From: Neptunomonas concharum
GTDB lineage: Bacteria; Pseudomonadota; Gammaproteobacteria; Pseudomonadales; Balneatricaceae
NCBI RefSeq assembly: GCF_008630635.1
Contig: NZ_CP043869.1
Coordinates: 1,860,001-1,924,000 of the forward strand
Length of the DNA stretch: 64,000 nucleotides
Direction: 5' to 3'
Part shown: piece by piece, positions 7,041 to 31,242 of the stretch
Position numbering within the stretch: the stretch's first letter is position 1
Layout of the letters: every line of letters begins with the position of its first letter
Program-made: the position numbers and the translations under genes
The notes under the pieces: model-generated
What the model saw: only the letters and a program-made list of their open reading frames with translations
Told to the model about the DNA's origin: nothing
Database searches by the model: none

Positions 7041-7233
7041 ACTAAAGCCAAAGCGTTGTCGCACTGGCCCATAAGTTGGGGCATGCTGTGTATTTTATGC
7101 TTAAGCAGGAGAAGGTGTTCGATAAGAGCAAGTTTTTAGCGAGTTAGTCACGCAACGAGGTGAGGTGAACGTCTAACTTTGAATAGGACAGCCGATGAAG
7201 TCTAGTGCCCCTGATATTATTGAAGGCTCATAT
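7041..7233 (+). mobile_element. 3' fragment of an IS1111-type (IS110 family) element
   Basis: From AAAGCCAAAGCG to a TAG at 7144-7146 the sequence aligns with the last 33 codons of the intact transposase at 22025-23032, with one frame slip near 7060. After the stop, blocks match the intact element's 3' region: GGTGAACGTCTAAC, CCGATGAA-GTCTAGTGCCCCTG, and the right end GGCTCATATG. The stretches between these blocks, which in the intact copy hold most of the putative bridge RNA, are deleted. The fragment ends against GTTATGC, an attC-type core. It is dead and marks the left border of the accessory island. Confidence 0.8.
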
Positions 7234-7240
7234 GTTATGC
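7234..7240. repeat. attC-type core half-site left of parDE
   Basis: GTTATGC directly abuts the right end of the IS1111-type fragment, as GTTAGGC does at 23499 beside the intact copy. The other half of this attC has been lost. Weak on its own; the parallel with the intact insertion carries the call. Confidence 0.45.
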
Positions 7241-7302
7241 GCCTTGTATCTAGGCCTAAATAGTACCACAATTAGGTATATTTTGGTATTGGGAGCTATA
7301 TT

Positions 7303-7545
7303 ATGGCTAAGAACACTAGTATTACCTTGGGTGACCATTTTGACGGTTTTGTTACTAATCAAATCCAAAGCGGTCGCTATAGCTCTGCAAGTGAAGTCAT
7401 TCGTTCCGCTTTACGTTTACTTGAAATCCAAGAAACTAAAATGAACACCTTACGCCAATTGCTTGTTGAGGGTGAAGAAAGTGGAATTACGGATTATGAC
7501 CTTGACTCGTTTATCAATGAGTTAGATAGCGAAGAGAGAAAATGA
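7303..7545 (+). CDS. parD: ParD-family antitoxin
   Basis: An 80-residue antitoxin of the CopG/Arc/MetJ ribbon-helix-helix type. The N-terminal strand SITLGDHFDGFV is followed by the diagnostic SGRYSSASEVIRSALRLLE; the acidic C-terminus (VEGEESGITDYDLDSFINEL) is the usual toxin-wrapping tail. The ATG has GGGAG 8 bases upstream. It overlaps the toxin gene by ATGA (7542-7545), so the two are translationally coupled. Repeated TTAGGTAT / TTTGGTATT words just upstream (about 7274-7292) could be the ParD operator. The pair lies in an integron-type cassette and would stabilise the array. Confidence 0.93.
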   Translation: MAKNTSITLGDHFDGFVTNQIQSGRYSSASEVIRSALRLLEIQETKMNTLRQLLVEGEESGITDYDLDSFINELDSEERK

Positions 7546-7853
7546 CACCATTTCAATTAACTAACAAGGCGAAGTCTGATTTAAGAGATATAGCCTTGTT
7601 TACCTTTAGACGCTGGGGTCGTGAACAGCGAAATATTTACCTAAAACAGTTTGATGACTCATTTTGGCTATTAGCCGAAAACCCTGACATTGGTAAAGCC
7701 TGTGACGAGATTCGCGATGGATACAGAAAATTCCCACAAGGAAGCCACCTAATATTTTATCGTCAGACCGGCAGTCAAAATATTGAGATTATCCGTATCC
7801 TCCACAAAAGCATGGATGTGAATCCAATTTTTGGCGCTGTAACGACCGCGTAA
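7542..7853 (+). CDS. parE: ParE-family toxin
   Basis: A 103-residue RelE/ParE-superfamily toxin: LTNKAKSDLRDIALFTFRRWG at the N-terminus, FDDSFWLLAENPDIGKACDEIRDGYRKFPQGSHLIFYR in the core and IEIIRILHKSMD at the end match ParE closely. ParE toxins act on DNA gyrase; RelE-type catalytic residues are absent, which supports ParE. The start overlaps parD by four bases. The pair is complete and probably functional. It is encoded against the prevailing (minus) direction of the cassette array, as is common for toxin-antitoxin cassettes that carry their own promoter. Confidence 0.93.
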   Translation: MTPFQLTNKAKSDLRDIALFTFRRWGREQRNIYLKQFDDSFWLLAENPDIGKACDEIRDGYRKFPQGSHLIFYRQTGSQNIEIIRILHKSMDVNPIFGAVTTA

Positions 7854-7891
7854 TAGGTGCGAGATTGCGAGCATCCTAATTGACGCGTTTG
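7838..7891 (-). repeat. attC half-site interrupted by an IS end
   Basis: After the parE stop the sequence CGCGTAATAGGTGC can pair imperfectly with GCATCCTAATTGACGCG around a short loop, and it ends GTTTG exactly at the left end of the next IS1111-type fragment (ATACTCATTGAGCC at 7892). The intact copy has the same junction (ACTTG then ATACTCATTGAGCC). This looks like one side of an attC split by the IS; the sequence has diverged. Confidence 0.5.
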
Positions 7892-8366
7892 ATACTCATT
7901 GAGCCTTCTCCCCAGCCTAGCCAGATTGACTAAGCTGAAAGGCAACCAAACCAAAAAGGAGAAGACCCAATGAACTTTTACAATAGCACTCATCGTCATT
8001 ATTGTGGAGTCGATTTGCATGCTCGTAGCTTGTATGTCTGTATCCTCAATCAGCAGAGTGAAACCTTGTTGCACAAGGAAATTCCTACCAGTCCTGATGC
8101 TCTCATCGCCTGATCCAACCCTATCTGGATGACCTGATCGTGGGTGTTGAATGCATGCATTGCTGGTACTAGGTAGCTGACTTCTGTGAAGAGCAAGGCA
8201 TTACTTTTATTCTCGGTCACGCCTTATACATGAAAGCAATTCACGGCGGTAAAACCAAGAATGACCGGATAGATTCCCACAAAATAGCGGCATTGATCAG
8301 GGGCGGTAACTTTCCTTTGGCTTATGTGTATCCCAAAAGCATGCGAGCTACGCGTGATCTGCTTCA
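7892..8366 (+). mobile_element. 5' fragment of an IS1111-type element with broken transposase
   Basis: The left end ATACTCATTGAGCCTTCTCC, the 80-base leader and the ATG at 7970 all match the intact element at 21946. The transposase starts MNFYNSTHRHYCGVDLHARS, then hits TGA after PTSPDALIA; a shift restores LIQPYLDDLIVGVECMHCWY, where a second stop (TAG) follows, and homology runs on to RATRDLL, ending about 8366. So there are two lesions plus loss of the 3' two-thirds. This copy keeps about 14 codons (HKEIPTSPDALIA region) that are missing from the longer 'intact' copy. Confidence 0.88.
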
Positions 8367-8404
8367 TGATGAAAGATGAAATAAATGCGAGTACCTGTAC
8401 TAGG

Positions 8405-8480
8405 GGAACCTGCGAATAAGTACTTATCTCCGTTAGTTAGGAAGCTGCAAAACCGAATCAGGGGCTTGTTCGCACTTTCC
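8405..8480. mobile_element. Miniature element with IS5-like terminal repeats
   Basis: GGAACCTGCGAATAAGT at the left pairs with the reverse complement of ACTTTCC-terminated right end, which reads GGAAAGTGCGAACAAGC: 13 of 17 positions agree. Both resemble the ends of IS5-family elements (GGAAGGTGCGAA-type). Only about 40 bases lie between them, so no transposase is present. Flanks CTAG and TTAG both fit the YTAR target preference of IS5-family elements, though they are not identical. It sits exactly between the broken IS and the copper cluster. Confidence 0.6.
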
Positions 8481-8530
8481 TTAGCCTTCTTTAGCGAATA
8501 TAGCCAGTCGCTTTATTAATAACCTCCGGA

Positions 8531-9091
8531 TTAATGATGCCCTTCATCACTTTTGCCACGTGCAGTAAGGATCTGATATTGCGCCTCTGTCAGGTCAGGC
8601 AGACGCTTAAGAAATGCCACCATATTCCAGATACGTACATCATCATGCCCCGGCGCCCAAGCGGGCATTCCCGATGCTTTAATTCCGTGTTTGATAATCC
8701 AGAAATTTCGCTGATCAGCGGCTTGTGCATCTTCACCCGCTCGAGAGATATCTGCCAAGTTTGGCGGAGATGGATACAAACCTAATGTAAAATCGCTTTC
8801 AGTTTTACCCGGCTTAAGATGGCAACCAGCACACATATCATTGTAGTCAGCACCACCTTTGAGTAAACGATCAACCGAATCAAGATCCGACGGCACTTCA
8901 ATGTTTTTCGAGGAGCGTGAGATCGAATTCTCGCGTAATGTCTCTAAGGCCCACGTGGTAATATCATAGTGAGGATCGTCAGCCCCCATCGAATATAAGC
9001 CCGAGTACAGAAACGCCACGCCTCCTATCCCAATAGCACCCGTTATTGCTATCAATCGCTTTAAACAAGCGCCTTTTTTAAAAGCTGTCAT
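8531..9091 (-). CDS. c-type cytochrome of copper cluster
   Basis: Single-haem cytochrome c: CAGCH near residue 88 binds haem and the Met in ASGMPAW is the likely distal ligand. The N-terminus has a hydrophobic helix (LIAITGAIGIGGVAFLYSGLY) that would export it and may stay as a membrane anchor. The frame opens at 9115, but I chose ATG 9091 (MTAFKKG) because a G-rich ribosome site lies about 8 bases upstream and the other start has none. It is the last gene of the copA-copB group. Cytochromes of this type commonly accompany periplasmic copper oxidases; a role in electron transfer to or from the copper proteins is inference. Confidence 0.85.
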   Translation of the reverse strand: MTAFKKGACLKRLIAITGAIGIGGVAFLYSGLYSMGADDPHYDITTWALETLRENSISRSSKNIEVPSDLDSVDRLLKGGADYNDMCAGCHLKPGKTESDFTLGLYPSPPNLADISRAGEDAQAADQRNFWIIKHGIKASGMPAWAPGHDDVRIWNMVAFLKRLPDLTEAQYQILTARGKSDEGHH

Positions 9092-9182
9092 CAGATAATC
9101 CCCCCCCGAGCACATCCCTTACCGATCTCTCGGCAAGGGGCATGCAGATTATTTGTTTCTATTTTTCTTTGATTGCTACTTA

Positions 9183-9479
9183 TTACTGCGAGGGAGCTTT
9201 CATCTGATGACCATCCCCATGAGATGCACTGTCTGCTTCTGCTGAGTCATGCCCCTCTGTTTCTGCCGTACCATGCTGCATGGTGCTCATGCATTGCTGC
9301 ATCATCGCCATCACGATAGGGTCGTTCATATCCATTTTACTATGATCCATCGTGCTCATAGCCGCACAATCCGGGCTCTCTGCTGTCTTCATATGCTCTT
9401 TTTCGCCATGTGCCAGTGCCGAAAACGACAACATGAGTGCAGGTACAGCAACTAAAGCGCTAAGTTGTTTACTCTTCAT
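9183..9479 (-). CDS. Met/His-rich periplasmic copper-binding protein
   Basis: A short exported protein: signal peptide MKSKQLSALVAVPALMLSFS with cleavage after ALA, leaving about 75 residues dominated by Met and His (HGEKEHMKTAE, MDHSKMDMNDPIVMAMMQQC, MQHGTAETEGHD, HGDGHQM). Such clusters bind Cu(I) through Met and Cu(II) through His. AGGAG lies 6 bases before the ATG at 9479; an upstream in-frame start at 9530 has no site and would overlap copB. No Pfam family comes to mind. It is the third gene of the copA-copB unit, so periplasmic copper buffering is the natural inference. Confidence 0.8.
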   Translation of the reverse strand: MKSKQLSALVAVPALMLSFSALAHGEKEHMKTAESPDCAAMSTMDHSKMDMNDPIVMAMMQQCMSTMQHGTAETEGHDSAEADSASHGDGHQMKAPSQ

Positions 9480-9520
9480 TTTTAACTCCTGAAATATGTT
9501 ATTTTTGTATTTGAATGGCA

Positions 9521-10375
9521 TTAGAACCAAAATTTAATCCCTGCGACATAACGTGTATCACGAACAGACTCGTTGGCAGCCCGGGCAATATCTGCCGTTT
9601 GGCCCAGCTTACTTGTCCACTCGACCCCGACATAGGGGGCGAACTGCCGCGTCATCTCGTAGCGTACCCTTAATCCAAACGCGACATCCGAAAAGCCATC
9701 GCCCAATCCGTTCTCAATATCATCCTGGCCATACAGGCTCACCTCAGCACGCGGTTGCAGTACCCATTGTTGGCTAAGCAATATCTCGTACTCAGCTTCA
9801 AGTGAAAGGGCCGTTCGTCCACTTTCTCCAATATAAGCAGTCATATCTAACTCAAACCAGTACGGAGCCAGCCCCTGCAACCCAATAGCAAGCCATTGTC
9901 GGTCCACACCCTCATCATATTGATCAAGTCGTATGCCCAACTGCGTATCGAAATAAGCACTGTATGCATGACTCCACAGAATATCTGCCTGACTTTCTTC
10001 CAAACGCCCGCTAGCGACATCACCTTCAAATTTGACATACAGGCGGTCATATGTGGAGCCATACCAGCCTCGAACATCAAATACGCCAGTATCATTATCA
10101 GAATCGTATTCGACACGATCGCCCTGAATCGCCCAAAATTTATGCTCGTCCGCAAGCTTTATCTGACGCGGCCCTCCTAACGCATAGGGCCCTTTTTCTA
10201 AGGTATAGCCATCTGAGTAGGCATGGGGATCACGAATTTCAGGTTGATCCGTTTTAGTCTGGGCCATTTTAGAGTGATCCATTTCAGCACGAGCCAGCAA
10301 AGAGCTCGTACTCATTGCGAACACAGCGACAACTGCCAGCGGCTTTATCACATCAACATTAATTAATTGTTTCAT
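9521..10375 (-). CDS. copB: Copper resistance outer-membrane protein CopB/PcoB
   Basis: Signal peptide followed by a short MDHSKM copper motif, then the PcoB-type beta-barrel: the conserved entry SDGYTLEKGPYALGGPRQIKLADEHKFWAIQGDRVEY, and repeated amphipathic strands ending in Phe (AGIKFWF), the usual outer-membrane C-terminal signature. At 284 residues it is typical of the family with a short Met-rich region. The start overlaps the copA stop as ATGA (10372-10375), so the two are coupled. In Pseudomonas and E. coli systems CopB/PcoB works with CopA/PcoA to sequester copper in the periplasm and outer membrane. Confidence 0.95.
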   Translation of the reverse strand: MKQLINVDVIKPLAVVAVFAMSTSSLLARAEMDHSKMAQTKTDQPEIRDPHAYSDGYTLEKGPYALGGPRQIKLADEHKFWAIQGDRVEYDSDNDTGVFDVRGWYGSTYDRLYVKFEGDVASGRLEESQADILWSHAYSAYFDTQLGIRLDQYDEGVDRQWLAIGLQGLAPYWFELDMTAYIGESGRTALSLEAEYEILLSQQWVLQPRAEVSLYGQDDIENGLGDGFSDVAFGLRVRYEMTRQFAPYVGVEWTSKLGQTADIARAANESVRDTRYVAGIKFWF

Positions 10376-12222
10376 GAAACCACCACTTCACGGAACATGC
10401 CCGCATCCATATGAAAAAGAAGATGACAATGCCAAGCCCAGCGGCCTACATCATGCGGCGTTGTTAAGAAACTAACCCGCTGAGCGGGCTGCACAGAGAG
10501 TGTGTGACGACGCACTAACAATTCGCCCTCCGCAGATTCCAAATCACTCCACATACCATGCAAGTGCATGGGGTGAGTCATCATCGTGTCATTTTGTAAA
10601 ATGATGCGTATCCGTTCGCCCTGGCGCATCGAAACCGGTGTGCTCTTACCAAACTCAAGCCCATCAATTGACCAGCTATAACGTTCCATATTGCCCGTCA
10701 GATGCAGCTCTATCTCCCGGGTAGGTACTCGGTCATCATCTAGTACACCATGAATTGAACGTAAATCAGCCTGTGTTAATACACGCCGACCATTGTTACG
10801 CAGCCCGATACCCGGGTCATCCAGATTAGTACGTGGCGTATCCACACGCATATCGACAGACGGGCCATATTCTGTACTCGCATGCCGAGCGGTTTGCGAA
10901 GGCACCTCCAGAGGGTTCGTCTGCATACCTTTCATGGTGCTGTGATCCATACCTTTCATGGTGCTGTGATCCATACCTTTCATGGCGCTATGGTCCATCC
11001 CTTTCATGTTGCTCTGGTCCATACCTTTCATGGTGCCGTGATCCATTGCGCCCATCATGTCAGTCATTGTCAGCCATTCAACGGAATCAAGCTCCGGCAC
11101 AGGAGCAACAAGCCCCGGACGGACTGATAAGGTGCCACTCGCGTAACCGGATCGATCCATGCTTTGTGCGAAAATGGTGTACGCATCCCCTTCAGGCTCG
11201 ACAATAACATCGTACGTTTCACCGGGACCAAAGCGGAACTCATCCACGCTAACCGGTTTCACATTTTGCCCATCGGCCTGCACAACACTCAGGCTCAAGC
11301 CGGGTATTCGCACATCATAAAAGCTATTACTGGAGCCATTGATAAAGCGCAGGCGCACACGCTCACCTTTATTAAACAACCCGCTCCAGTTGCCCGCAGG
11401 CGTCATACCGTTCATCAGATACGTAAAGGTTGTTGCTGAAAGATCCGCTAAATCAGTAGGATTCATCCGCATCTGATTCCACATCTTGCGCTTTTCAAAC
11501 GCTCCTTTAAGCCCTATCGTTGATGCATCTCGTAAAAAATCACCGACTACTGGCTGATTGAAGTTATACACATCACTTTGCACCTTCAATTTGGAAAAGG
11601 CAGACATAGGACTTTCATCTGTCCAGTCTGAGAGCTGTATTACATGATCTTGATCTGCCTGAATCGACTCACCTTCGAGCGGCTCTACTATGAGTGCGCC
11701 ATACATCCCGGTCATCTCCTGGAAGCCAGTATGCGAGTGATACCAGTAAGTCCCACTTTGTTTTAACGTAAAGCGATACTCAAAAGTCTCTCCTGGCGCT
11801 ATACCGCGAAAGCTAATGCCTGGTACGCCATCCATCTGATAAGGAAGGATAATTCCATGCCAATGAATCGAAGTAGAAACAGATAGACGATTAATCACAC
11901 GAATAGTCACCTCATCGCCTTCGCGTAAACGCAGTGTCGGTGCAGGAATAGATCCATTAATAGTGGTTGCCATTCGCGTAACACCCGTAAAATTGACCGG
12001 TGTTTCAGCGATAACCAACGTGATGACCTTGCCACTCAACACCGGCGCTGATCCTAAGCGGGTATCATTTGTGTTGGCAGAAAGTAGCCTTGGCATTGCG
12101 GATAAGACACCACCCGCTGCCAGGCCTTTTACAAAAAGCCGTCGTGACAAACGAGGGCGAGAAATTAACGCAGATTCGTCTTGTTTCATACTTTCTGGTG
12201 CTCCGCTGTTACTGCTTACCAT
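10372..12222 (-). CDS. copA: Copper-resistance multicopper oxidase CopA/PcoA
   Basis: Periplasmic oxidase that detoxifies Cu(I). The N-terminus has a twin-arginine signal (SRRLFVKGLAAGGVLSA), so it is exported folded. Copper ligands: IHWHG near residue 120, WYHSHTG near 162, HPMHLHGMW near 555 and the cysteine block HCHLLFHMDAGM at the C-terminus, giving complete type 1, 2 and 3 sites. Residues about 387-434 hold a Met/His repeat (MDHSTMKGM units), encoded by near-identical 24-base repeats. ATG at 12222 or 12189 could be the start; neither has a strong ribosome site. It leads the copA-copB-Met/His-cytochrome unit and has a CusR/CopR-type box about 100 bases upstream. Confidence 0.96.
   Translation of the reverse strand: MVSSNSGAPESMKQDESALISRPRLSRRLFVKGLAAGGVLSAMPRLLSANTNDTRLGSAPVLSGKVITLVIAETPVNFTGVTRMATTINGSIPAPTLRLREGDEVTIRVINRLSVSTSIHWHGIILPYQMDGVPGISFRGIAPGETFEYRFTLKQSGTYWYHSHTGFQEMTGMYGALIVEPLEGESIQADQDHVIQLSDWTDESPMSAFSKLKVQSDVYNFNQPVVGDFLRDASTIGLKGAFEKRKMWNQMRMNPTDLADLSATTFTYLMNGMTPAGNWSGLFNKGERVRLRFINGSSNSFYDVRIPGLSLSVVQADGQNVKPVSVDEFRFGPGETYDVIVEPEGDAYTIFAQSMDRSGYASGTLSVRPGLVAPVPELDSVEWLTMTDMMGAMDHGTMKGMDQSNMKGMDHSAMKGMDHSTMKGMDHSTMKGMQTNPLEVPSQTARHASTEYGPSVDMRVDTPRTNLDDPGIGLRNNGRRVLTQADLRSIHGVLDDDRVPTREIELHLTGNMERYSWSIDGLEFGKSTPVSMRQGERIRIILQNDTMMTHPMHLHGMWSDLESAEGELLVRRHTLSVQPAQRVSFLTTPHDVGRWAWHCHLLFHMDAGMFREVVVS
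10924..11060 (-). repeat. 24-bp coding tandem repeats in copA
   Basis: Five to six copies of an approximately 24-base unit (consensus on the plus strand CATACCTTTCATGGTGCTGT plus GATC) encode MDHS-x-MKG-M octapeptides. The rightmost units have diverged most (TTGCTCTGGTCC), the leftmost two are identical, suggesting recent expansion on the C-terminal side. Copy number probably varies between strains. Confidence 0.9.
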
Positions 12223-12245
12223 GCTGTTATTAAGTGACTGCTAAC

Positions 12246-12558
12246 GTGTTAAAAAATAGCTATTTTCACTTGTCATGTGTCACACTCTAGCGCGACCTCC
12301 CTGACAGCGGCATGACCTGAAGATGACAAAATTGTAATCTTCAGGTTGTAGGAAAAAGTGATTAAGTCCTCAGTCATGAAGGACTTAAGATCGCAGCATG
12401 ATTACCCCATTTATCAAAGAGGTGAAGTCAAAAAAGGAATTAAAAACAGCACACGGAAGAAAGGAGCAACTCAACCTTTATTAGTTGAAAGGCGGGCAGG
12501 TATTAACTTAATCGCATCTTTCCCAGGGGAAATTAATACCAATAGAGACTGGAGCCCG
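12246..12558. promoter_or_regulatory. copA promoter region with CusR/CopR-type box
   Basis: The gene-free stretch between copA and cusS. At 12323-12338 ATGACAAAATTGTAAT is a good match to the cop/cus box bound by CusR/CopR response regulators. It is the centre of a 30-base near-perfect palindrome (CCTGAAGAT at 12316-12324 against ATCTTCAGG at 12337-12345). It would drive copA leftwards. The rest (12360-12558) has no other clear signal; a plus-strand open frame there has no homology that I know. Confidence 0.75.
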
Positions 12559-13968
12559 TTACGTTTTAGTAATCAACGAATCATTTTTAAAAAATGTCAC
12601 TTTAAAGCTCGTGCGCTCTACCGTTGAAGATACTGATATTTCGCCATTATGAGCTACTACGATTGCACGTGTTATTGCTAAACCTAAACCTACCCCTTCA
12701 GAATTTCCTTTCACTCGATTTTTATCAACCCTGTAAAAACGTTCAAAAAGATGAGGAATATACTCTGCTGATATTGGCGTACCTACATTATTTACTGTAA
12801 GAAGAGTTGACTTATCACTCGCTTCAATTTGAACTTCGACGGTACTATGAGTGGGCGTATAACGTATAGCATTAGATAGTAAGTTATTGATAACCCGACG
12901 AATCATTAAACGATCACCTTGTATTTCACCTTTCCCTTTTAGTCTCAGCAATATGTTATGGTCTTCTGCCAACGCATCATAAAATTCAAACAAATCAGCT
13001 ACTTCTTTATCAAGCTCAATAGTTTCCTTAGAGGGTAACTCTAATCCATGATCCGCTTTGGCAAGAAAAAGCATGTCTGAAATCATACGTGAAAGCCGCT
13101 CATACTCTTCTGCATTAGAAGCGAGAATAGATTGATATGTTCGGACATCTCTGGGAAAACTCAGAGCCACATGTGTTTGCGTCATCAGATTGCTGATGGG
13201 TGTTCTAAGCTCATGAGCTATATCTGAGGAAAACTCAGATATACGCCTGAACGCATCTTCTAATCGCTCTAACATTTGATTGAGAGCATTAGCCAACTCT
13301 GAGATTTCTGCCGGAACATTTTCAACAGGCATGCGCTTATCTAACTGGTTCGCTGTAACCGCTAATGCACGATTTCTCATTTGGTATAGAGGCAGCAAAC
13401 CTTTCTTTGCCGCTAACCAACCGAGAAGACCACTGATTAATGCAGCGATAACAACATAGAGTAACAGGGCACCCTGAAAGCGTGACATAAAAAGCTCATG
13501 ATGATTAATATTCAACGCTACCAATATACTAATCGGCTGTTTCGGCTGAGCTATTGTACTTTTAGTGACAACAAGCCCTCGATAAGATTGCCCCTCAGCA
13601 CTCCAGGTTATAGCGTGAGGAGAAGACACACTTGATTTTCCTTTTATGAGATTAAGAGGAAATGTTACTCCTCCAGAGCTATACAGTGGCACACCCTGCT
13701 CATTCATCACTAAAACCAACAGCTCTTTATGCCCAATTAACCCTGATTTTAGCTTGTCTGCGAACACAGGCAATGTACCCGCACCAACACCCTCAGAAAC
13801 AATACTACTGACTAGCTGTATTTTCCCTTGCAGTGTTTCTTTATCCTGCTCAAAGAAGTGCTGCTTTATAGAGAAGACAATCACGACACTAAGCCCTAGT
13901 AAAACAAAACCTGATACCAATGCATATAAGCCCGTCAGCCGCCAAATTAAAGATAATTTACGTTTCAT
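12559..13968 (-). CDS. cusS: Heavy-metal sensor histidine kinase, CusS/CopS type
   Basis: Inner-membrane sensor of periplasmic copper. Two membrane helices (residues about 10-32 and 165-187) bracket a periplasmic domain; a HAMP linker follows ([27 protein letters not shown]), then HisKA with the phosphorylated His in [14 protein letters not shown] near residue 250, and HATPase_c ([32 protein letters not shown]). At 469 residues it is standard. The ATG overlaps the cusR stop as ATGA (13965-13968). The pair is placed in the middle of the copper cluster, between the two structural operons that it is expected to control. Confidence 0.94.
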
Positions 13969-14654
13969 ATTTTGTCAGAAACCTCTAACACGTAACCCAT
14001 TCCCCGAAGCGTATGTATGAGTTTAAGACCATAAGGCTCATCTACTTTTCTACGAAGACGCCTAATAGCGACTTCTATCACATTAGTATCACTGTCAAAA
14101 TTCATATCCCATACCTGAGATGCAATCAAAGACCGTGACAACACCTCACCCTCTCGTCTCATGAGTAATTCCAATAACGAAAACTCTTTAGCCGTGAGCT
14201 CTATTCGTATACCCGCTCTGCTAACCCGTCGGCGTAACAGATCAAGTTCTAAATCGGCAACAGTCAACACGGTCGCTTCTGGCGTGATGCGAGTGCGTTT
14301 TAATAAAGAACGTATACGTGCCAGGAGCTCTGAAAAAGCAAAAGGCTTTACTAAATAATCATCAGCACCGAGTTCAAAGCCCTTTACCCGGTCCTCTACC
14401 TGATCGCGTGCGGTTAAAAATAATACAGGCATATCCCTGCCACTCAGGCGTAATGTTTCTAAAACTTTCCAACCATCAAGTCCGGGCAACATGACATCAA
14501 GGATAATCAAATCATAAGCGTCAACTTGTGTAAGCGCCAAATGAAGACCATCTATCCCGTTACACGCAAGATCCGTATTAAACCCGGCTTCATTTAGCCC
14601 CTGCTGAAGAAACATTCCTGTTTTATCTTCATCTTCCACAACCAGTATTTTCAT
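13965..14654 (-). CDS. cusR: Heavy-metal response regulator, CusR/CopR type
   Basis: OmpR/PhoB-family regulator of 229 residues: receiver domain with acidic pocket (VVEDEDKTG), phosphorylated Asp in [14 protein letters not shown] near residue 52, Thr in VLFLTARDQ and Lys in [16 protein letters not shown]; then the winged-helix domain ([51 protein letters not shown]) with the recognition region typical of CusR/CopR. Translationally coupled to cusS. The divergent start shares the region 14655-14815 with the small Met/His gene, where an ATTAC-N6-GTAAT box lies, so autoregulation together with the rightward operon is likely. Confidence 0.95.
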
Positions 14655-14709
14655 AAGACTCCTAGATGTTTTGGGTGAGTATAAAGCATATAGGCAGTAT
14701 TCAATCGAA

Positions 14710-14725
14710 ATTACAAAAATGTAAT
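14710..14725. promoter_or_regulatory. CusR/CopR-type box between divergent operons
   Basis: ATTACAAAAATGTAAT is a perfect ATTAC/GTAAT inverted repeat with a six-base spacer, matching the cop box form found upstream of copA (12323-12338, same TGTAATCTTCA flank on one side). It lies 56 bases from the cusR start and 90 from the start at 14816, so it may serve both directions. Confidence 0.75.
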
Positions 14726-14815
14726 CTTCATGTCAGCCTCATGAAAGGAGCAGTGTTTATTATAACTTCCAAAGAGTAAAAACACTTTCTCACATGAGTC
14801 TGGAGTACAACCACC

Positions 14816-15238
14816 ATGAAAGTTAAAAAAATTATTATCAGCTTAAGCAGTGTATTAATTATCAGCGCTGCCTTACCTGCCGCTGCCGATCAGGATGCCA
14901 AGACACATTACATGATGCATGGTGGGGACGGCCCACAAGGACACCAGATGGAAGGTAGCAAACACAGTGCAGACCAGAGTCAAGAACACAAAGTGATCAC
15001 TCCTCATACAGATAAAGCATCTGCTACAAACACGCATTACATGATGCATGGAGGTCAAGGTGAACAGGGGCATTTAATGGAGGGGGCCAAACATGCAAGC
15101 AACCAAGCAACAGTGCACCAAACACAACTAGCCACTAATTCGCCAACAAGTAGCCCTAAAAACAAGCACTATATGATGAACTCCGGTGACGGTCCTCAGG
15201 GCTACTGGATGGAAGGCAAGGATCACCCTACCTATTAA
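14816..15238 (+). CDS. Exported protein with three Met/His repeats, putative copper binding
   Basis: A 140-residue protein with an N-terminal signal peptide (KKIIISLSSVLIISAALPAAA). The mature part is three imperfect repeats of about 22 residues: THYMMHGGDGPQGHQMEG, THYMMHGGQGEQGHLMEG and KHYMMNSGDGPQGYWMEG, each followed by a short Ser/Thr/Gln-rich spacer. Conserved positions are HYMM, G-x-G, QG and MEG, so each repeat offers one or two His and two or three Met. I recognise no family. It is the first gene to the right of the cop box, ahead of the copper ATPase, so a periplasmic copper chaperone or buffer is inferred. Confidence 0.75.
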   Translation: MKVKKIIISLSSVLIISAALPAAADQDAKTHYMMHGGDGPQGHQMEGSKHSADQSQEHKVITPHTDKASATNTHYMMHGGQGEQGHLMEGAKHASNQATVHQTQLATNSPTSSPKNKHYMMNSGDGPQGYWMEGKDHPTY

Positions 15239-15245
15239 CTTTACG

Positions 15246-15277
15246 GCCACTCATGGTCAATAACAATCATGAGTGGC
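15246..15277 (+). terminator. Strong hairpin after the three-repeat gene
   Basis: GCCACTCATG (15246-15255) pairs perfectly with CATGAGTGGC (15268-15277) around a 12-base loop. There is no T-run, so it may be a partial terminator or an mRNA-stabilising hairpin that sets the ratio between the abundant small protein and the downstream ATPase. Confidence 0.5.
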
Positions 15278-15355
15278 GTGCTGAATTCCAATGTTATTCC
15301 GAGTTTACCGCAATGATTTTATTTACACGTTTCAACTACCATTCAGGAGAAAATC

Positions 15356-17641
15356 ATGGGCTATTCGGATACTGATAGCACTCAGGAAAAAACGTCATTA
15401 AAGCAACCGTCGGGTTCTATTGACTTAATCATTGATGGCGCAGGTTGTGCCAGTTGTGTCGGCAAAATTGAGGGTGCGCTGACATCAGTAAAAGGTGTTC
15501 AGCAAGCAGAAATGAATTTTGCAGCTCGTACAGTTTCAGTATCAGGTCAGGCCGAACCTTCAGCATTAATTCAGGCGGTTAAGCAGGCAGGATATAGCGC
15601 CAAGGTGGTACAAAGCAGCTCAGAAGAAGCATTGCTTGATGAAAAAGAACAAGTCGACCTAGCCTATTACAAAACACTCATGAGGAAAATGTGGATAGGC
15701 ATTGCTTTAGGCCTACCATTGATGATTTACAGCATTGTTGGCGGTGAAATGACTGTGACCACACCAACCGAGCGACTCGCTTGGCTATTCGTGGGAGCGT
15801 TAACCTTTAGCGTCATGTATTTTGCCGGAAAACATTTTTTTGTTGGCGCGTGGCAATCATTTAAAAACCACTCAGCGAACATGGACACGTTAATTGCTTT
15901 GGGTACAGGTACCGCCTGGGTTTACTCGATGGCGGTCATCGCGGTTCCTGAGCTGATACCTGACATGGCAAGGCACGTATACTTCGAAGCGACTGCAATG
16001 ATTATCGGGTTGATCAACCTCGGGTTAGCCCTTGAAGTAAAAGCACGAGGCCGAACATCTGAAGCGATCAAACGACTCATCGGCTTACAGCCGAAAACAG
16101 CCCGAGTACTGAGAGACGGTATTGAGGTAGATATCCCGATCGAACAGGTACTACTTCATGATATTGTCCGTGTCAGACCCGGTGAAAAGATCCCGGTAGA
16201 TGGCGTCATTCAAGAGGGCCAAACAGCCATTGATGAGTCGATGCTGACTGGTGAACCAATGCCGGTTGTCAAAAACGCAGGTGATGAAGTGGTCACCGGC
16301 ACTTTAAATAAAACAGGCTCTATCGTCTTTAAAGCCACTCGCGTCGGCAAAGATACTGCGTTAGCGCAAATCATCAAGATGGTTAAAGTCGCTCAGAACT
16401 CTAAACCTCCCATTGGCCGCCTAGCCGATATTATATCCGCCTACTTTGTGCCTGTTGTTATGATTATTGCAGTGCTCAGTGCACTGGCGTGGTTGAACTT
16501 CGGACCAGAACCGGCCTTAGCCTTTGCCATTGTTTCCGCAACAACCGTACTGATTATCGCCTGCCCCTGCGCGTTAGGTTTAGCCACACCGATGTCAGTC
16601 ATGGTCGGCGTAGGTAAAGCTGCAGAAGCGGGTGTCTTGATTAGAAATGGAGCCGCATTACAAACAGCCTCTAAAATTACCGCCATGATTCTTGATAAAA
16701 CCGGCACGATTACTGAAGGCGCTCCAAAGGTGACCGATATTATTGTGACTAATGGATCACATGAAGACAGTATCCTGCAGTTAGCCGCTAGTATGGAGTC
16801 AAGCTCAGAGCACCCATTAGCGATGGCAATTGTTGAATCAGCAACAGCCAAAGGTTTAACACTCAATCGAGCAGAAAATTTCAATGCAATTGCCGGTCAT
16901 GGTGCGACAGCGACTATTCAGAACCAACGATTGCTACTGGGTAATGAAAAATTAATGCGTGACCGTAAAGTTGATATCAGTGGTTATATCGAGACGGCTC
17001 AGCAGCTGGCCAGTGAAGCTAAAACCCCTATTTACTTTGCTGTTGATGAACAACTTGCCGCTGTTATTGCGGTATCAGATCCAATCAAACAGGATTCAAT
17101 TACCGCCATTAACCGCCTCCAATCTAATGGTATTCGTGTTGTTATGCTCACGGGCGATAACAGACTGACAGCTAAAGCGGTTGCCGAAAAAGTAGGGATA
17201 ACGGAGTTTTTCGCTGAAGTTTTACCCGAAGAGAAAGCACAAAAAGTAGCTGAATTACAACAACAAGGTGAAGTAGTCGGCATGACTGGGGACGGGATTA
17301 ATGATGCCCCTGCACTGGCACTGGCCAACGTCGGATTTGCGATAGGAACCGGCACCGATGTCGCCATAGAAAGTGCGGATATTACGTTAATGCGCGGTTC
17401 ATTACACGGCCTAGCTGATGCGATAGCTGTCAGCAAAGCAACATTACGTAACATCAAACAAAATCTCTTTGGCGCCTTTATCTATAACGTAGCGGGTGTA
17501 CCTTTCGCGGCAGGCGTACTTTACCCCTTCTTCGGGTTGCTCTTAAGCCCAGTGATTGCTGGGGCTGCCATGGCCTTTTCATCTCTGACTGTTGTCATGA
17601 ATGCTAACCGCCTACGTCTTTTTAAAGCCAAAGAACATTAA
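15356..17641 (+). CDS. Copper-exporting P1B-type ATPase
   Basis: A 761-residue Cu(I) pump that moves copper from cytoplasm to periplasm. One N-terminal HMA domain has GAGCASC (Cys31, Cys34). The transmembrane CPC metal site lies near residues 403-405 ([13 protein letters not shown]), the phosphorylated Asp near 447 in DKTGTIT, the P1B-specific HP in [11 protein letters not shown], and the hinge [10 protein letters not shown]. The last helices hold the [15 protein letters not shown] and [15 protein letters not shown] signatures of the Cu(I) subgroup (YN, MxxSS). The ATG has CAGGAGA 5 bases upstream. Usually called copA/ctpA; I leave the symbol blank to avoid confusion with the oxidase copA here. 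The following genes are closely packed. Confidence 0.97.
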
Positions 17642-17653
17642 GGAGTCGATGCG

Positions 17654-18007
17654 ATGTTGTGGATTAATATTAGTGGCATTCTGCTGATAGCTCTTATCGT
17701 TTGGTGGTTCTGGCTTTATAAGCCGCAAGAGGTCGAAGTCACCAACAATAAGATGGTTATCAGAATCGAAAACGGCGTTTACACCCCCGCTCATATAAAG
17801 GTGAAAGCAAATCAAAGTACTCTTCTGGCATTCATCAGAACTGACAACTCACCCTGCGCAGCTACTGTGCTGATTCCTGGGTTAGAGATCAGCGAGGAAA
17901 TTCCACTCAACAAAGAGACTGTAATTACTTTGCCACCTTTAACGACTGGAGAGTACCCATTCCACTGCTCGATGCAAATGTATCGTGGTGTTATTAAGTC
18001 TGAATAA
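17654..18007 (+). CDS. Cupredoxin-domain protein, membrane anchored
   Basis: A single N-terminal helix (WINISGILLIALIVWWFWLY) anchors a cupredoxin fold of about 90 residues facing the periplasm. The conserved pattern IENGVYTPAHIKVKANQSTLLAFIRTDNSPCAATVLIPGL and the C-terminal TTGEYPFHCSMQMYRGVI carry the type-1 like ligands: Cys and Met of FHCSMQM, and a Cys in SPCAATV where His is more usual. So the copper site may be unusual. It starts 12 bases after the ATPase stop with GGAG upstream. In related copper islands this small cupredoxin follows the ATPase and may accept the exported Cu(I); that role is inference. Confidence 0.85.
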   Translation: MLWINISGILLIALIVWWFWLYKPQEVEVTNNKMVIRIENGVYTPAHIKVKANQSTLLAFIRTDNSPCAATVLIPGLEISEEIPLNKETVITLPPLTTGEYPFHCSMQMYRGVIKSE

Positions 18008-18018
18008 GGAGTGATTGT

Positions 18019-18294
18019 ATGTTTAGTTTTTGGAAAACACCTTCAGGATTAGCAGCATTAGGCTTAATTGGTGCAGCCACTTACTTTTTAGTCATTGAAC
18101 ATCAACAGCATATTTTTGCCTTTTTACCTTTCTTGATTTTTCTAGCGTGTCCATTAATGCACCTGTTTATGCATGGTAAACATGGACACAGCAAGCATGA
18201 AGAAAATGAAGAGAGCAAAGACAGTTTTCAGCAAGGCATTGAAGAAGGCAAACGTCAGTCACTTAATAGTAACAATGAAGGAGAATCACGGTGA
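18019..18294 (+). CDS. DUF2933 protein
   Basis: A 91-residue membrane protein with two hydrophobic helices (GLAALGLIGAATYFLVIEH and IFAFLPFLIFLACPLMHLFMH) and a cytosolic or periplasmic tail rich in His and acidic residues (HGKHGHSKHEENEESKD). The CPLMHLFMHGKHGH block, with Cys, Met and several His, is characteristic of DUF2933 and suited to binding soft metals. The gene starts 11 bases after the cupredoxin and overlaps the next by ATGA-like coupling (18291-18294, GTGA). Function is unproven; its neighbourhood points to copper handling. Confidence 0.85.
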   Translation: MFSFWKTPSGLAALGLIGAATYFLVIEHQQHIFAFLPFLIFLACPLMHLFMHGKHGHSKHEENEESKDSFQQGIEEGKRQSLNSNNEGESR

Positions 18295-18968
18295 CCGAAG
18301 AAGCTTCATATGGCCTTTGGTGGCTGGTGATTGTAAATTCAGCCATATTTATCTTTTTTGCTTTTAGCTTTATTAAGCCCAAAACTAAAACAGATTGGCG
18401 AAGCCTTGGGGCGTTCTCTGCCTTCGTCGTCGCCCTGTTTACAGAGATGTATGGGTTCCCATTAACGATTTACCTGCTTTCCGGCTGGTTAACTGACAAC
18501 TATCCGGCTGTTAATTTTTTTGCACATGACAATGGCCACCTGCTGCATAACCTATTAGGATTTGACGGGAATCCACATTGGGACCCTTTACATATAGCGA
18601 GTAATATTTTCATCGTTGTTGGTTTCTTTACGCTCTCTTCCGCATGGAACGTATTGCATCAGGCACAAAAAAATAAAGTGCTGGCGTTTACAGGGCTTTA
18701 TGCACGCTGCCGCCACCCACAATATGTTGCTTTTATCTTAATCATGTTTGGTTTTTTACTACAGTGGCCCACAGTCATAACACTGGTGATGTTCCCCATT
18801 CTAGTCGTTGTATATGTCCGTTTAGCTAAACGTGAGGAGCAAGTAGCATTATCAGAATTTGGTGATGAGTACCTACAGTATATGCGCGTTACGCCAGGTT
18901 GGTTTCCACTACTCCACATACCAAACCCATCTATAAGTGAAACAGATAATCAAGGAGAAAAATCATGA
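18291..18968 (+). CDS. ICMT/PEMT-like membrane methyltransferase family protein
   Basis: A polytopic protein of 225 residues with about five helices and the C-terminal signature of the isoprenylcysteine carboxyl-methyltransferase / phospholipid methyltransferase fold: GLYARCRHPQYVAFILIMFG, then RLAKREEQVALSEFGDEYLQYMRVTPGWFP. In these enzymes the RHP and the EE motif contact S-adenosylmethionine. GTG start coupled to the DUF2933 gene. The same gene recurs in copper and heavy-metal islands, but its substrate is not known. The bacterial members may modify lipids or a small thiol rather than prenylated proteins. Confidence 0.85.
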   Translation: MTEEASYGLWWLVIVNSAIFIFFAFSFIKPKTKTDWRSLGAFSAFVVALFTEMYGFPLTIYLLSGWLTDNYPAVNFFAHDNGHLLHNLLGFDGNPHWDPLHIASNIFIVVGFFTLSSAWNVLHQAQKNKVLAFTGLYARCRHPQYVAFILIMFGFLLQWPTVITLVMFPILVVVYVRLAKREEQVALSEFGDEYLQYMRVTPGWFPLLHIPNPSISETDNQGEKS

Positions 18969-19324
18969 ATAATTCACAACATAGACTCGGCGTTAGCGAG
19001 GTCAACTTAGTTGTCAGGCATTTACGGTTAGAAAACATAACAGTGGAGAATAGGGATTTAATACTGACAGAAATCGATGCGATTTATGGTATCGACAATG
19101 TTTCATTTGATGATAAAGCAGCGATATTGAACATTGCTTATGATGCATCACGTTGCAACTTAGACGGAATTGAAGAGGTAATCAGACAACATGGCGCTGA
19201 TGTCGCGCATGATTGGTGGACACACTTTAAAGAAGGCTACTACCGGTATGTTGATCAGAACGTAAAAGATAATTCAGTCCATGAACCCTGGAGTTGCCAT
19301 AAGCTCCCGCCGGGTAAAAAATAG
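18965..19324 (+). CDS. HMA-like small protein lacking the CxxC metal motif
   Basis: A 119-residue protein whose middle (EVNLVVRHLRLENITVENRDLILTEIDAIYGIDNVSFDDKAAILNIAYDASRCNLDGIEEVIRQHGAD) has the beta-alpha-beta-beta-alpha-beta rhythm of heavy-metal-associated domains, but without the usual MxCxxC loop. The C-terminus has WWTHFKEGYYRYVDQN and a lone Cys-His (WSCHKLP) that might bind metal instead. It overlaps the methyltransferase by four bases (ATGA) and ends the copper operon, 20 bases before attC-like sequence begins. It appears in some databases as a cation-transporter-like protein. Metal binding is inference. Confidence 0.75.
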   Translation: MNNSQHRLGVSEVNLVVRHLRLENITVENRDLILTEIDAIYGIDNVSFDDKAAILNIAYDASRCNLDGIEEVIRQHGADVAHDWWTHFKEGYYRYVDQNVKDNSVHEPWSCHKLPPGKK

Positions 19325-22024: not shown

Positions 22025-23032
22025 ATGAGATTTTATACTACACAACATCCGTACTATTGTGGAATAGATTTACATGCACGATCCTTGTACGTCTGCATTC
22101 TGGATGATACCGATGAACCCTTGCTGGACTTATTAACGCCCTATATCGGCAATATTGTTGTCGGTGTTGAATGCATGCATTGCTGGTACTGGGTTAGCGA
22201 TTTCTGTACTAAACATAACATCGACTTTATTCTGGGTCACGCGCTTTACATGAAGGCTATCCATGGCGGTAAAGCCAAAAATGACCGCATTGACTCCTAT
22301 AAAATCGCTCACCTTATCCGTGGCGGCAATTTCCCATTGGCCTATGTGTATCCACCCGAGATGCGTGCTGCTCGTGACTTACTCCGTCGTCGTACACGTA
22401 TCGTTCGTCATGGTGCCAATTTAAAAGCGCATGCAAAAAACACCACCAGCCAATACAATTTTCCACCGAATAATCTAGATCTAAAATACCCTTGCGCTCG
22501 GGAAGCGATGCGAAACTGCTTTGATGATGAGTTCGTGCAACGCAGTATTGATCTGGACTTAGACATCATCGCGTTTTACCGCCATGAACTCAGCTCAATC
22601 GAGTGCTTTATTGAAAAACATGCCAAGCATCACAACGGCCGAGATTACCACATCCTGACCAGCTTTCCCGGCATTGGCCGTTTTTTAGCGCTAACGATCC
22701 TTTACGAAGTCGGTGACATTGGCCGTTTTAGCACGGTACAGGACTTTGCGTCGTACAGTCGGCTTATCAAGTGTAAAGCGGAATCAGCAGGCAAGAGCTA
22801 CGGCACCCAAGGCAATAAAATTGGAAATGCCCACCTAAAATGGGCCTTTGGCGAAATTGCGGTGCTGTACCTACGTGGTAACGACAAAGCAAAAAACTAC
22901 CTGTTAAAACTACAAAAACGCATGAGCAAAGCCAAAGCGCTCTCCGCCCTGGCGCATAAAATTGGTCGCTGCGTGTACTACATGCTGAAAAATCAAAAGG
23001 TGTTTGATGAAAAACGTTTCCTAGCCAGTTAA
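22025..23032 (+). CDS. tnpA: IS1111-type transposase (DEDD recombinase)
   Basis: A 335-residue IS110-family recombinase. The RuvC-like domain has the acidic tetrad Asp15 (CGIDLHA), Glu49 (VVGVECMHCW), Asp87 and Asp90 (KNDRIDSYKIA). The C-terminal Tnp domain has SFPGIGRFLALTILYEVGD and the serine-bearing AESAGKSYG region, followed by KAKALSALAHKIGRCVYYML. Compared with the broken copy at 7892 (and the usual family form) about 14 residues are missing between EPLL and LLTPY in the RuvC-like domain, in frame; whether this protein is active is therefore uncertain. Ribosome site AAGGAGAAG precedes ATG 22025. Confidence 0.93.
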   Translation: MRFYTTQHPYYCGIDLHARSLYVCILDDTDEPLLDLLTPYIGNIVVGVECMHCWYWVSDFCTKHNIDFILGHALYMKAIHGGKAKNDRIDSYKIAHLIRGGNFPLAYVYPPEMRAARDLLRRRTRIVRHGANLKAHAKNTTSQYNFPPNNLDLKYPCAREAMRNCFDDEFVQRSIDLDLDIIAFYRHELSSIECFIEKHAKHHNGRDYHILTSFPGIGRFLALTILYEVGDIGRFSTVQDFASYSRLIKCKAESAGKSYGTQGNKIGNAHLKWAFGEIAVLYLRGNDKAKNYLLKLQKRMSKAKALSALAHKIGRCVYYMLKNQKVFDEKRFLAS

Positions 23033-27697: not shown

Positions 27698-28477
27698 ATG
27701 CAAAATTATGAAGATATTCTTGTCAGTGGCGTTGAATCTGGCGTTCTGACTATTCGTCTTAATCGCCCCGATGCTTACAACGCGCTGCGTACACAACTGC
27801 TTCGCGAGTTAGCCGATGCGTTGGATACAGCTGCAGCGGATGATCAGGTAAAAGCCGTGGTGCTTACTGGCAGTGATACCGTGTTCGCAGCGGGTGCTGA
27901 TATTAAAGAGATGGCATCACTGGATGTCGTTGGCGTGATGAATGACCCTCGCCCTACTTTCTGGCGTCGCATCGCTCTCTTCCCTAAACCGATTGTTGCT
28001 GCCGTCAATGGCTTTGCGTTGGGGGGAGGATGTGAGTTGATGATGCATTGTGACATCGTTATTGCCGGTGATAATGCACAGTTCGGTCAGCCTGAAATCA
28101 ATCTTGGGATTATCCCGGGCGCAGGCGGCACCCAACGACTGATCCGTACCATTGGTAAATCCATGGCGATGCAGCTAGTGCTGTCGGGTGAGTTCATCAG
28201 CGCTCAGCAAGCACGCTCGTTTGGGTTGGTAAGCGAAGTGACTATCCCTGAACGCTCGCTAGAGCGCGCCACTCAGCTCGCTAAAAAGATTGCAACCAAG
28301 CCCCCTATTGCGGTACGTCTAGCAAAAGAGGCGTTATTAAAAGCCTACGAAACAACACTGGATAGCGGCCTGAATCTCGAACGTAAAGCCTTTACCCTAC
28401 TGGCGGCTACGGAAGACCGTAACGAAGGGATTGCTGCTTTTATGGAAAAACGTAAACCGAACTTCACAGGAAAATAA
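27698..28477 (+). CDS. paaF: 2,3-dehydroadipyl-CoA hydratase
   Basis: A crotonase-fold enzyme of 259 residues. First conserved loop GSDTVFAAGADIKEM gives the first oxyanion-hole amide; NGFALGGGCELMMHCDIVIA the second; Glu in FGQPEINLGIIPGAGGTQRL supplies the general base pair used for water addition. In the pathway it hydrates 2,3-dehydroadipyl-CoA to 3-hydroxyadipyl-CoA. First gene of paaFGHIJK, with GGCAGGG before the ATG. The next gene follows after 4 bases. Assignment of F rather than another hydratase rests on order and sequence; it is secure. Confidence 0.93.
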   Translation: MQNYEDILVSGVESGVLTIRLNRPDAYNALRTQLLRELADALDTAAADDQVKAVVLTGSDTVFAAGADIKEMASLDVVGVMNDPRPTFWRRIALFPKPIVAAVNGFALGGGCELMMHCDIVIAGDNAQFGQPEINLGIIPGAGGTQRLIRTIGKSMAMQLVLSGEFISAQQARSFGLVSEVTIPERSLERATQLAKKIATKPPIAVRLAKEALLKAYETTLDSGLNLERKAFTLLAATEDRNEGIAAFMEKRKPNFTGK

Positions 28478-28481
28478 TAAA

Positions 28482-29273
28482 ATGTCTTACGAAACAATCG
28501 AGTTTTCTATTACTGAAGGCGTTGCCGTACTGACGCTTAATCGTCCTGATAGCCTGAACAGTTTCAATACCCAGATGCACGCTGAAGTTCGCAGTGCGTT
28601 AAAAGAGGTTAAAAAGGACAGCAGCGTTCGTTGTCTATTACTAACGGGTAATGGCCGTGGTTTTTGTGCAGGTCAGGATTTGAGCGATCGTAATGTCGCA
28701 CCCGGTGCAGAGGCTCCTAACTTAGGTGAGTCGATCGAGAAGAATTACAGTCCGTTGCTACGTACTATCCGTTCGTTAGAGATGCCGGTTATCTGCGCGG
28801 TTAACGGTGTAGCAGCCGGTGCTGGCGCAAACATCGCCTTTGCTTGTGACATTGTTTTAGCAGCGAAATCAGCTTCTTTTATTCAGGCATTCTGCAAAAT
28901 CGGGCTTGTGCCTGACTGTGGCGGAACCTGGTCTTTACCACGCTTAGTTGGCCCGGCACGCGCGATGGCGCTGTCTATGCTTGGCGACAAGGTATCTGCT
29001 GAGCAGGCTGAACAATGGGGCATGATCTGGAAAAGCGTTGAAAACGAGTCCCTCATGGATGAAGCGCTGTCCATGGCTAAACATTTTGCAACCCAACCCA
29101 CTAAGGGCTTGGCATTGATTAAACGTGCGATTCAGGCATCGGCAACCAACACATTTGATGAGCAACTTGATCTGGAGCGTGACCTGCAAACACTCGCAGG
29201 CCGCACCGAAGACTACCGTGAAGGTGTCGCTGCCTTTATGGAAAAACGTCAACCAGCATTCAAAGGACAATAA
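28482..29273 (+). CDS. paaG: 1,2-epoxyphenylacetyl-CoA isomerase
   Basis: A 263-residue crotonase-fold protein. GNGRGFCAGQDLSDRNVAPG with Asp after GQ is the PaaG signature (the Asp acts as base), and NGVAAGAGANIAFACDIVLAAKSASFIQAFCKIGLVPDCGGTW is its typical core. PaaG turns the ring epoxide of phenylacetyl-CoA into oxepin-CoA and also shifts the double bond later in the pathway. The reading frame is open upstream to 28431, inside paaF, but ATG 28482 has AGGAAA upstream and fits homologues. Confidence 0.94.
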   Translation: MSYETIEFSITEGVAVLTLNRPDSLNSFNTQMHAEVRSALKEVKKDSSVRCLLLTGNGRGFCAGQDLSDRNVAPGAEAPNLGESIEKNYSPLLRTIRSLEMPVICAVNGVAAGAGANIAFACDIVLAAKSASFIQAFCKIGLVPDCGGTWSLPRLVGPARAMALSMLGDKVSAEQAEQWGMIWKSVENESLMDEALSMAKHFATQPTKGLALIKRAIQASATNTFDEQLDLERDLQTLAGRTEDYREGVAAFMEKRQPAFKGQ

Positions 29274-29275
29274 AC

Positions 29276-30784: not shown

Positions 30785-31242
30785 TGAGTCTATCTTCAGA
30801 GCAGATGGCCAATGCTTGTAGCCAAGCAATGCACGCCAATGACAAAGCCGCGCAAATGCTGGATATGTCGATTGTCGAAGTTCGTCCAGGTTATGCTCAC
30901 TTAGAAATGACCGTACGCAAAGATATGCTTAACGGTCATGATATCTGTCATGGTGGCATGATCTTTACGTTAGCCGATACAGCCTTTGCTCACTCGTGTA
31001 ACACGTATAACAAAGTTACCGTGGCTAGCGGCTGTACGATTGACTTTGCAGCACCCGCTTTCGAGGGTGATCGCTTACGCGCTATCGCCGAGGAGCGTCA
31101 CCGTAAAGGCCGTACTGGTGTCTACGACATCACGGTTTATAACCAGAATAATGAAGCTCTCGCTTTCTTCCGCGGCAAGTCACACCAAATCAATGGTGTT
31201 CTAGTCGATGAGAACGGCGAATCTGCAAAATCAGGAGAATAG
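30784..31242 (+). CDS. paaI: Hydroxyphenylacetyl-CoA thioesterase
   Basis: A 152-residue hotdog-fold thioesterase: LNGHDICHGGMIFTLADTAFAHSCNTYN is the PaaI signature (the HGG and Asp residues line the active site) and GRTGVYDITVYNQ the last long strand. It releases CoA from dead-end phenylacetyl-CoA derivatives. The frame stays open 41 codons further back inside paaH, but homologues begin at MSLSSEQMANACS, so ATG 30784 was chosen; it shares its A with the paaH stop (TAATG), implying coupled translation. Confidence 0.94.
   Translation: MSLSSEQMANACSQAMHANDKAAQMLDMSIVEVRPGYAHLEMTVRKDMLNGHDICHGGMIFTLADTAFAHSCNTYNKVTVASGCTIDFAAPAFEGDRLRAIAEERHRKGRTGVYDITVYNQNNEALAFFRGKSHQINGVLVDENGESAKSGE

Follow-up and report, generated by a model that had tools for sequence, protein, structure and literature searches.

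Our analysis revealed that the gene heading a copper operon in Neptunomonas concharum belongs to what its sequences indicate is a real, small and so far unnamed family of repeat proteins, referred to here as HYMM proteins. We consider it probable, at roughly two chances in three, that its product is a copper-induced periplasmic metal-buffering protein, either a sponge or a shuttle for Cu(I)/Ag(I). The window, that is, the whole stretch of DNA analysed, comprises 64,000 nucleotides, and positions refer to it unless another locus is named.

A repeat protein at the head of a copper operon

Verification of start, stop and strand confirmed an ORF of 140 aa (Table 1), the N-terminus of which, read by eye, has a basic start (KVKK) followed by a hydrophobic segment ending in PAAA-DQ. 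It looks like a Sec signal peptide with cleavage after residue 24, which would leave a Cys-free mature protein of 116 aa with 13 His and 9 Met. Three repeat cores, HYMMxxGxGPQGxxMxGxxH, start at residues 31, 74 and 118, and the repeat is far above chance, as 14 positions are identical in the best-matching pair of 17-aa windows, against a maximum of 8 in 300 shuffles of the mature sequence. The preliminary description of an exported-type protein, a signal peptide followed by a three-fold HYMM repeat, was therefore upheld for the ORF and the repeats, while export has the appearance by eye that it claimed. It had given the unit as 22 residues with two to three Met and one to two His; the conserved unit is 20 residues, and each core does carry 3 Met, but the His count, made by eye, is higher (4, 4 and 2). 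An AlphaFold model reached a very low pLDDT of 43.8 on an alignment of only 7 rows, a value that fits disorder and also fits so shallow an alignment. The model placed strands at residues 73–77/85–89 and 117–121/129–133, spanning the turn in core 2 and in core 3, although these are too weak to be relied upon, and no solved structure matched the protein by sequence.

Table 1. Features of the copper locus in the window
Feature	Position	Strand	Basis or remark
CopB outer-membrane protein	9521..10375	-	PF05275
CopA/PcoA multicopper oxidase	10372..12222	-	TIGR01480 918 bits, cut-off 479
Second cop-box-like site TGACAAAATTGTAAT	12324..12338	+	upstream of leftward multicopper oxidase operon; exact TGACAn5GTAAT
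copS, sensor kinase with CusS sensor domain	12559..13968	-	PF21085 E 1.8e-22
copR, OmpR-type response regulator	13965..14654	-	PF00072 and PF00486
CopR-type dyad ATTACAAAAATGTAAT	14710..14725	.	between copR and HYMM gene, 90 bp before ATG
HYMM-repeat protein gene, 140 aa	14816..15238	+	ORF and family alignments
Signal-peptide-like segment, residues 1–24	14816..14887	+	read by eye
Repeat core 1 HYMMHGGDGPQGHQMEGSKH	14906..14965	+	
Repeat core 2 HYMMHGGQGEQGHLMEGAKH	15035..15094	+	
Repeat core 3 HYMMNSGDGPQGYWMEGKDH	15167..15226	+	
Hairpin, no T run	15246..15277	+	arms GCCACTCATG 15246–15255, complement 15268–15277
Copper-translocating P-type ATPase, N-terminal HMA domain	15356..17641	+	Pfam; TIGR01511 617 bits, cut-off 397
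Cupredoxin-like protein	17654..18007	+	PF13473 E 2.7e-26
DUF2933 protein	18019..18294	+	PF11666
ICMT-like membrane methyltransferase	18291..18968	+	PF04140
Weak CopZ/HMA-like protein	18965..19324	+	no Pfam match; below all cut-offs, NF033795 E 0.003

The HYMM gene is the first to the right of copR and, as had been described, heads a rightward copper operon with the copper ATPase and cupredoxin genes downstream; the spacing of the genes suggests that those from the HYMM gene onwards form a single transcript. Orthologues of copR also adjoin the HYMM gene in Pontibacterium granulatum (L011) and N. qingdaonensis (L015). Neither tRNA (ARAGORN) nor any Rfam family at gathering score was detected in the window. 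At 9183–9485 a further small Met/His-rich protein is encoded, with a signal-like start and with Cys, which matched no family above cut-off.

The preliminary description had placed the gene directly under a cop box, and, as would be looked for in a member of the CopR regulon, a CopR-type box was found between copR and the gene. The consensus reported for CopR of P. aeruginosa, in the portion of PMC11195947 that describes it, is CTGACAn5GTAAT. Apart from the dyad in the window, the 3.56-Mb genome of the organism contains no exact copy of ATTACANNNNTGTAAT; however, the reversed pattern, used as a control, also occurs once, and allowing up to two mismatches yielded 3 matches in the window against 3.6 expected. 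Its position rather than its count is therefore the evidence, since chance also gives about one match per genome. In N. qingdaonensis and P. granulatum an identical 16-base box precedes the HYMM gene, starting at -103 and -105, and across three lineages an exact box starts at -103 to -106, with the Pontibacterium DNA around it just 66.5 % identical to the window. Variants were seen with two mismatches at -94 in Marinobacterium litorale and with one mismatch at -81 in genome G110, and five of the ten HYMM genes tested (L012, L013, L014, L023 and L024) had no cop-box-like site within 350 bp upstream. For the second site in Table 1, TGACAn5GTAAT with up to one mismatch occurs 4 times in the window against 4.2 expected. 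We infer that CopR would bind the predicted box and that copper would induce the HYMM gene.

A hairpin after the gene, also described previously as one that could raise the gene's share, was confirmed in GCCACTCATG and its complement, such an effect on expression being conjectural: trimmed to the hairpin, 46 nt fold at -20.4 kcal/mol (z -5.1), and a 131-nt stretch gives z -2.5. No terminator-like T run was found within 14600–15500, and a full terminator is unlikely because no T run follows the hairpin in the window; the structure is possibly a partial terminator or a 3' stabiliser. A hairpin likewise forms at the corresponding site of N. qingdaonensis (z -2.6), where inspection by eye shows a U-A pair replaced by C-G and a single mismatch, and hairpins of different sequence follow the gene in L011 and L012 (z -4.0 and z -6.0, respectively). 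A strong hairpin at each of these four loci, which were all those folded, together with the first place in the operon, could be read as the mark of a leader that mainly controls the downstream ATPase and whose product is of little importance. This is very improbable, as the core residues are kept while the linkers drift and, in the other genera examined, the HYMM gene does not stand directly before an ATPase.

Distribution and conservation of the family

Relatives were found by protein search in 7 of 96 related genomes, that of N. concharum included, and by profile search within the same bacterial family in 11 of 116 genomes and 6 of 16 genera. Neptunomonas is placed in Oceanospirillaceae in NCBI and presumably in Nitrincolaceae in GTDB. 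A contig scan with one narrow peptide pattern returned 14 stretches, of which 8 were confirmed, at 7 loci in Neptunomonas (2), Pontibacterium, Marinobacterium (2) and Neptuniibacter (2); the copies in genomes G110, G128 and G129 are not among them. Samples of the order, class and phylum, each including some genomes of the same family, contained relatives in 2/390 genomes (both of that family), 1/369 (N. concharum itself) and 3/398 (N. concharum and two chance matches). Outside the family, matches in G891 (E 0.002) and G1118 (E 0.009) had, on six-frame reading of both, no HYMM core in the matched frame and lay opposite what by eye are an MFS-type transporter frame and a membrane-protein-like frame, respectively, and both were judged to be chance. 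Two scans of viral contigs gave 8 and 21 pattern-matching stretches but no confirmed relative, phage records gave nothing up to E 1, and the window protein as query matched no plasmid up to E 10. A Roseomonas plasmid match at E 9, obtained with a typed family consensus, was taken as chance. Such rarity implies that the family is unnecessary for copper resistance in general.

The absence of a named family for the repeat, as originally claimed, held up: ten HYMM members hit no Pfam family up to E 1 and brought no NCBIfam model to its cut-off, and none of the literature titles and abstract openings on copper and HYMM mentions the repeat, nor did anything on it come up in PMC7763554 and PMC10141476, which were searched for other terms. 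Rejected NCBIfam candidates were SASP_sspL for member L003 (E 1.6e-5, 24.7 bits, cut-off 51.85), HvfA for member L005 (E 0.11, 13 bits, cut-off 95) and further marginal matches, all far below their cut-offs. HvfA is a RiPP metallophore model, and that marginal match, alongside regular repeats with variable linkers, raises the idea that the HYMM protein is a precursor cut or modified into copper-binding peptides. HvfA modification requires Cys, however, which is absent from all ten members, and no HvfB/HvfC-type family was present among the window neighbours scanned, so we hold this reading to be highly unlikely.

Conservation within the family is concentrated in the cores. Among 29 repeats from ten aligned proteins, His1, Gly7, Met15 and His20 each occur in 28 and Met4 in 22. 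These repeats were picked by (H/E)YM, which forced positions 1–3, and a second pick was therefore made blind to them, using positions 7–20 only; all 25 cores so obtained begin HYM. Mean pairwise identity is 67 % for the cores, 24 % for the linkers and 37 % for the signal segment, the linker values being depressed by unequal lengths. The N. qingdaonensis HYMM protein, which has two cores only, is 46 % identical to that of the window, compared to 91 % each for the ATPase and CopR. Sequence comparison thus indicates that the HYMM protein drifts fast outside its cores.

Genomic context and mobility

In 10 of the 11 genomes with a HYMM gene, its neighbourhood includes genes for metal resistance or metal sensing, the order of which differs between genera. 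In Neptunomonas the order is copRS, HYMM and CopA ATPase; in Pontibacterium copRS and HYMM are followed by genes for an outer-membrane channel, a CusB-like protein and a CusA/CzcA-family pump; in Marinobacterium arenosum the HYMM gene lies between pcoA oxidase and copB on one side and RND genes on the other, and in M. litorale between RND genes and copC on one side and a multicopper oxidase on the other. Assignment to the pump family was checked for L011, L012 and L016, and the other subunits were assigned by Pfam in L011 and by eye elsewhere. The PcoA-type oxidase TIGR01480 was found in 10/11 HYMM genomes versus 31/105 others (Fisher p 1.1e-4, uncorrected for kinship); the M. litorale genome lacks it, yet has another multicopper oxidase next to the HYMM gene. 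The exception to the metal context is G128 (L033, 243–3821), where the HYMM gene sits between transposase and cytochrome c-type genes. Five flanking ORFs were scanned there and none matched a metal-resistance family; an insertion sequence may have brought this copy to its present place as a stray.

Other neighbourhoods point beyond copper. In Neptuniibacter pectenicola and Neptuniibacter marinus (L013 and L014) the genes nearby are those for a CDF-like transporter that stays below its cut-off and a CadR/PbrR regulator that exceeds its own (TIGR02047), together with lspA; G110 carries the same CDF-like/CadR/lspA block together with copRS relatives, and G129, on a contig of 3.5 kb, has MerR-type and cation-efflux genes. 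As the Neptuniibacter genes stand beside Cd/Pb-type genes and those tested have no cop box, copper may not be the sole metal, and the HYMM protein could buffer a wider set (Ag, Zn, Cd or Pb) of which copper is merely one. We judge this to be unlikely. Copper genes adjoin the HYMM gene in Neptunomonas, Pontibacterium and both Marinobacterium species, G110 has its copRS relatives and its one-mismatch box as well, and Met-rich sites favour the soft monovalent ions of copper and silver. The Neptuniibacter genes are paired paralogues about 3.3 kb apart (L013, 8019–8426 and 11648–12007; L014, 2649–3056 and 6365–6769). The block with CDF-like, CadR/PbrR and lspA genes flanks the pair on one side, and a 2-kb part there is 88 % identical to the G110 block.

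Comparison with an 11.3-kb contig of N. marina (L010) showed 98.3 % identity over 7173–18165, including 423/423 identical bases in the HYMM gene, while one chromosomal stretch, at 28000–31000 and 10 kb away, is 74 % identical between the same two genomes. This difference suggests that the copper island probably moved recently by horizontal transfer. The Met/His-rich gene at 9183–9485 is likewise identical in N. marina (303/303 bases), and an IS110-type transposase-like ORF, by eye, occupies 22025–23032, 2.7 kb beyond the copper operon. The multicopper oxidase contains tandem MDHSxMKG units, and the copy number of these probably varies between the window and N. marina, since the alignment of the two oxidase genes has 48 gap bases.

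Relation to known proteins and proposed function

The HYMM protein was compared with characterized copper and silver proteins. It resembles PcoE and SilE as a small, Cys-free, His/Met-rich protein encoded in a Cu/Ag locus with a two-component system; like them it is predicted to be exported, its start being signal-like by eye, and it may likewise be disordered without metal, with which the low-confidence model is consistent. The yardstick for these tests was a protein that we take to be PcoE from its place and length (L038, 20407–20838). The SilE model NF047789 recovered this yardstick (E 8.5e-44, 149 bits, under its cut-off of 200) but matched none of the ten HYMM proteins up to E 1. Alignment of the HYMM and PcoE-like proteins by hhalign gave a probability of 5 % over the signal segment only. 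BLASTP of this single pair speaks the other way with E 0.004, over the signal segment and a His/Met-rich linker. The SilE motifs as given in the part of PMC5008109 concerned, MxxHx(5-6)HxxM and HxxMxxxHxxM, each occur once in the yardstick and in none of the ten HYMM proteins. Membership of PcoE/SilE was thus ruled out by model, motif and hhalign tests. The same source states, in the section in question, that SilE folds upon binding six Ag+ and that PcoE takes up to nine Cu+ (PMC5008109). On the Raoultella soil plasmid that carries the yardstick (L038), a hypothetical protein beside pcoA (13308–13757) also resembles SilE (NF047789 E 8.8e-23, 81 bits, cut-off 200) and is additional to the PcoE-like protein after pcoS.

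CusF, a protein of the periplasm that binds Cu(I)/Ag(I), folds into a barrel and has a single site with His/Met/aromatic ligands. HYMM proteins share with CusF/SilF their small size, predicted periplasmic location and association with genes for a Cus-type pump. However, they are repeat proteins without sequence similarity to it: the CusF model NF007348, which does find its own yardstick, matched 0/10 members up to E 1, BLASTP gave E 18 and hhalign a probability of 0.3 %, and membership was rejected. A CusF-like role as a dedicated chaperone to one partner, such as CusB or a multicopper oxidase, rather than a sponge, would suit the CusA/CzcA-family pump genes close by at three loci in two named genera (L011, L012 and L016) and a His/Met/aromatic residue set that recalls the CusF ligands. 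We consider this quite improbable, given the lack of CusF similarity and since two to three repeats, variable linkers and changing neighbours better fit a many-site buffer. CopM of Synechocystis, in the part of PMC4335983 that deals with it, is a copper-induced periplasmic Met/His-rich protein that is encoded with copRS and binds Cu(I). The HYMM protein is likewise Met/His-rich and encoded beside copRS, but CopM has two DUF305 domains, a domain found in 0/10 HYMM members. The oxidase encoded in this gene cluster has tandem Met/His units as well, the MDHSxMKG repeats, although they lie within an enzyme, measure 8 residues and by eye lack a GPQG turn.

Content, place and regulation argue that the best reading of the HYMM protein is as a buffer that is PcoE/SilE-like in function, by analogy, and of independent origin. 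In the mechanism we propose, CopS, with its CusS sensor domain, would activate CopR, which would bind the dyad and switch the operon on. The signal peptide would export the HYMM protein, which may stay unfolded or loosely folded. Around its GxGPQG turn, each 20-residue core would offer the soft ligands His1, Met3, Met4, Met15 and His20 and, variably, His5/His13, so that a repeat would make up roughly one site for Cu(I) (or Ag(I)). The loaded protein would then retain copper until co-encoded machinery removes it. In this genome the acceptors would be the cupredoxin and the oxidase/CopB pair, and in Pontibacterium and Marinobacterium they would be Cus-type RND pumps. Export, CopR regulation, metal binding, the single site per repeat and hand-over are all predictions. 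Counted against a copper buffer were the Neptuniibacter neighbours, which point to Cd, Pb or Zn, the context in G128 and the five of ten genes without a box. The preliminary description had proposed a new periplasmic copper chaperone; the unnamed family and its copper operon stand, while the binding of copper is a prediction and a chaperone is a less probable role than a sponge.

A bolder proposal, possible though doubtful, is that HYMMxxGxGPQGxxMxGxxH represents a new modular metal-binding unit. Each 20-residue, beta-hairpin-like cassette would be a self-sufficient site for Cu(I)/Ag(I). Disordered linkers would join two or three such cassettes, and metal-resistance islands would exchange them as a general loader for whatever exporter is adjacent.

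In summary, if the reading of the HYMM protein as a periplasmic buffer is true, an independent, unnamed family would join the small number of periplasmic copper/silver sponges known so far, its motif being short enough for direct testing as a peptide, and copper islands moving among marine bacteria would carry such buffers as optional cargo.
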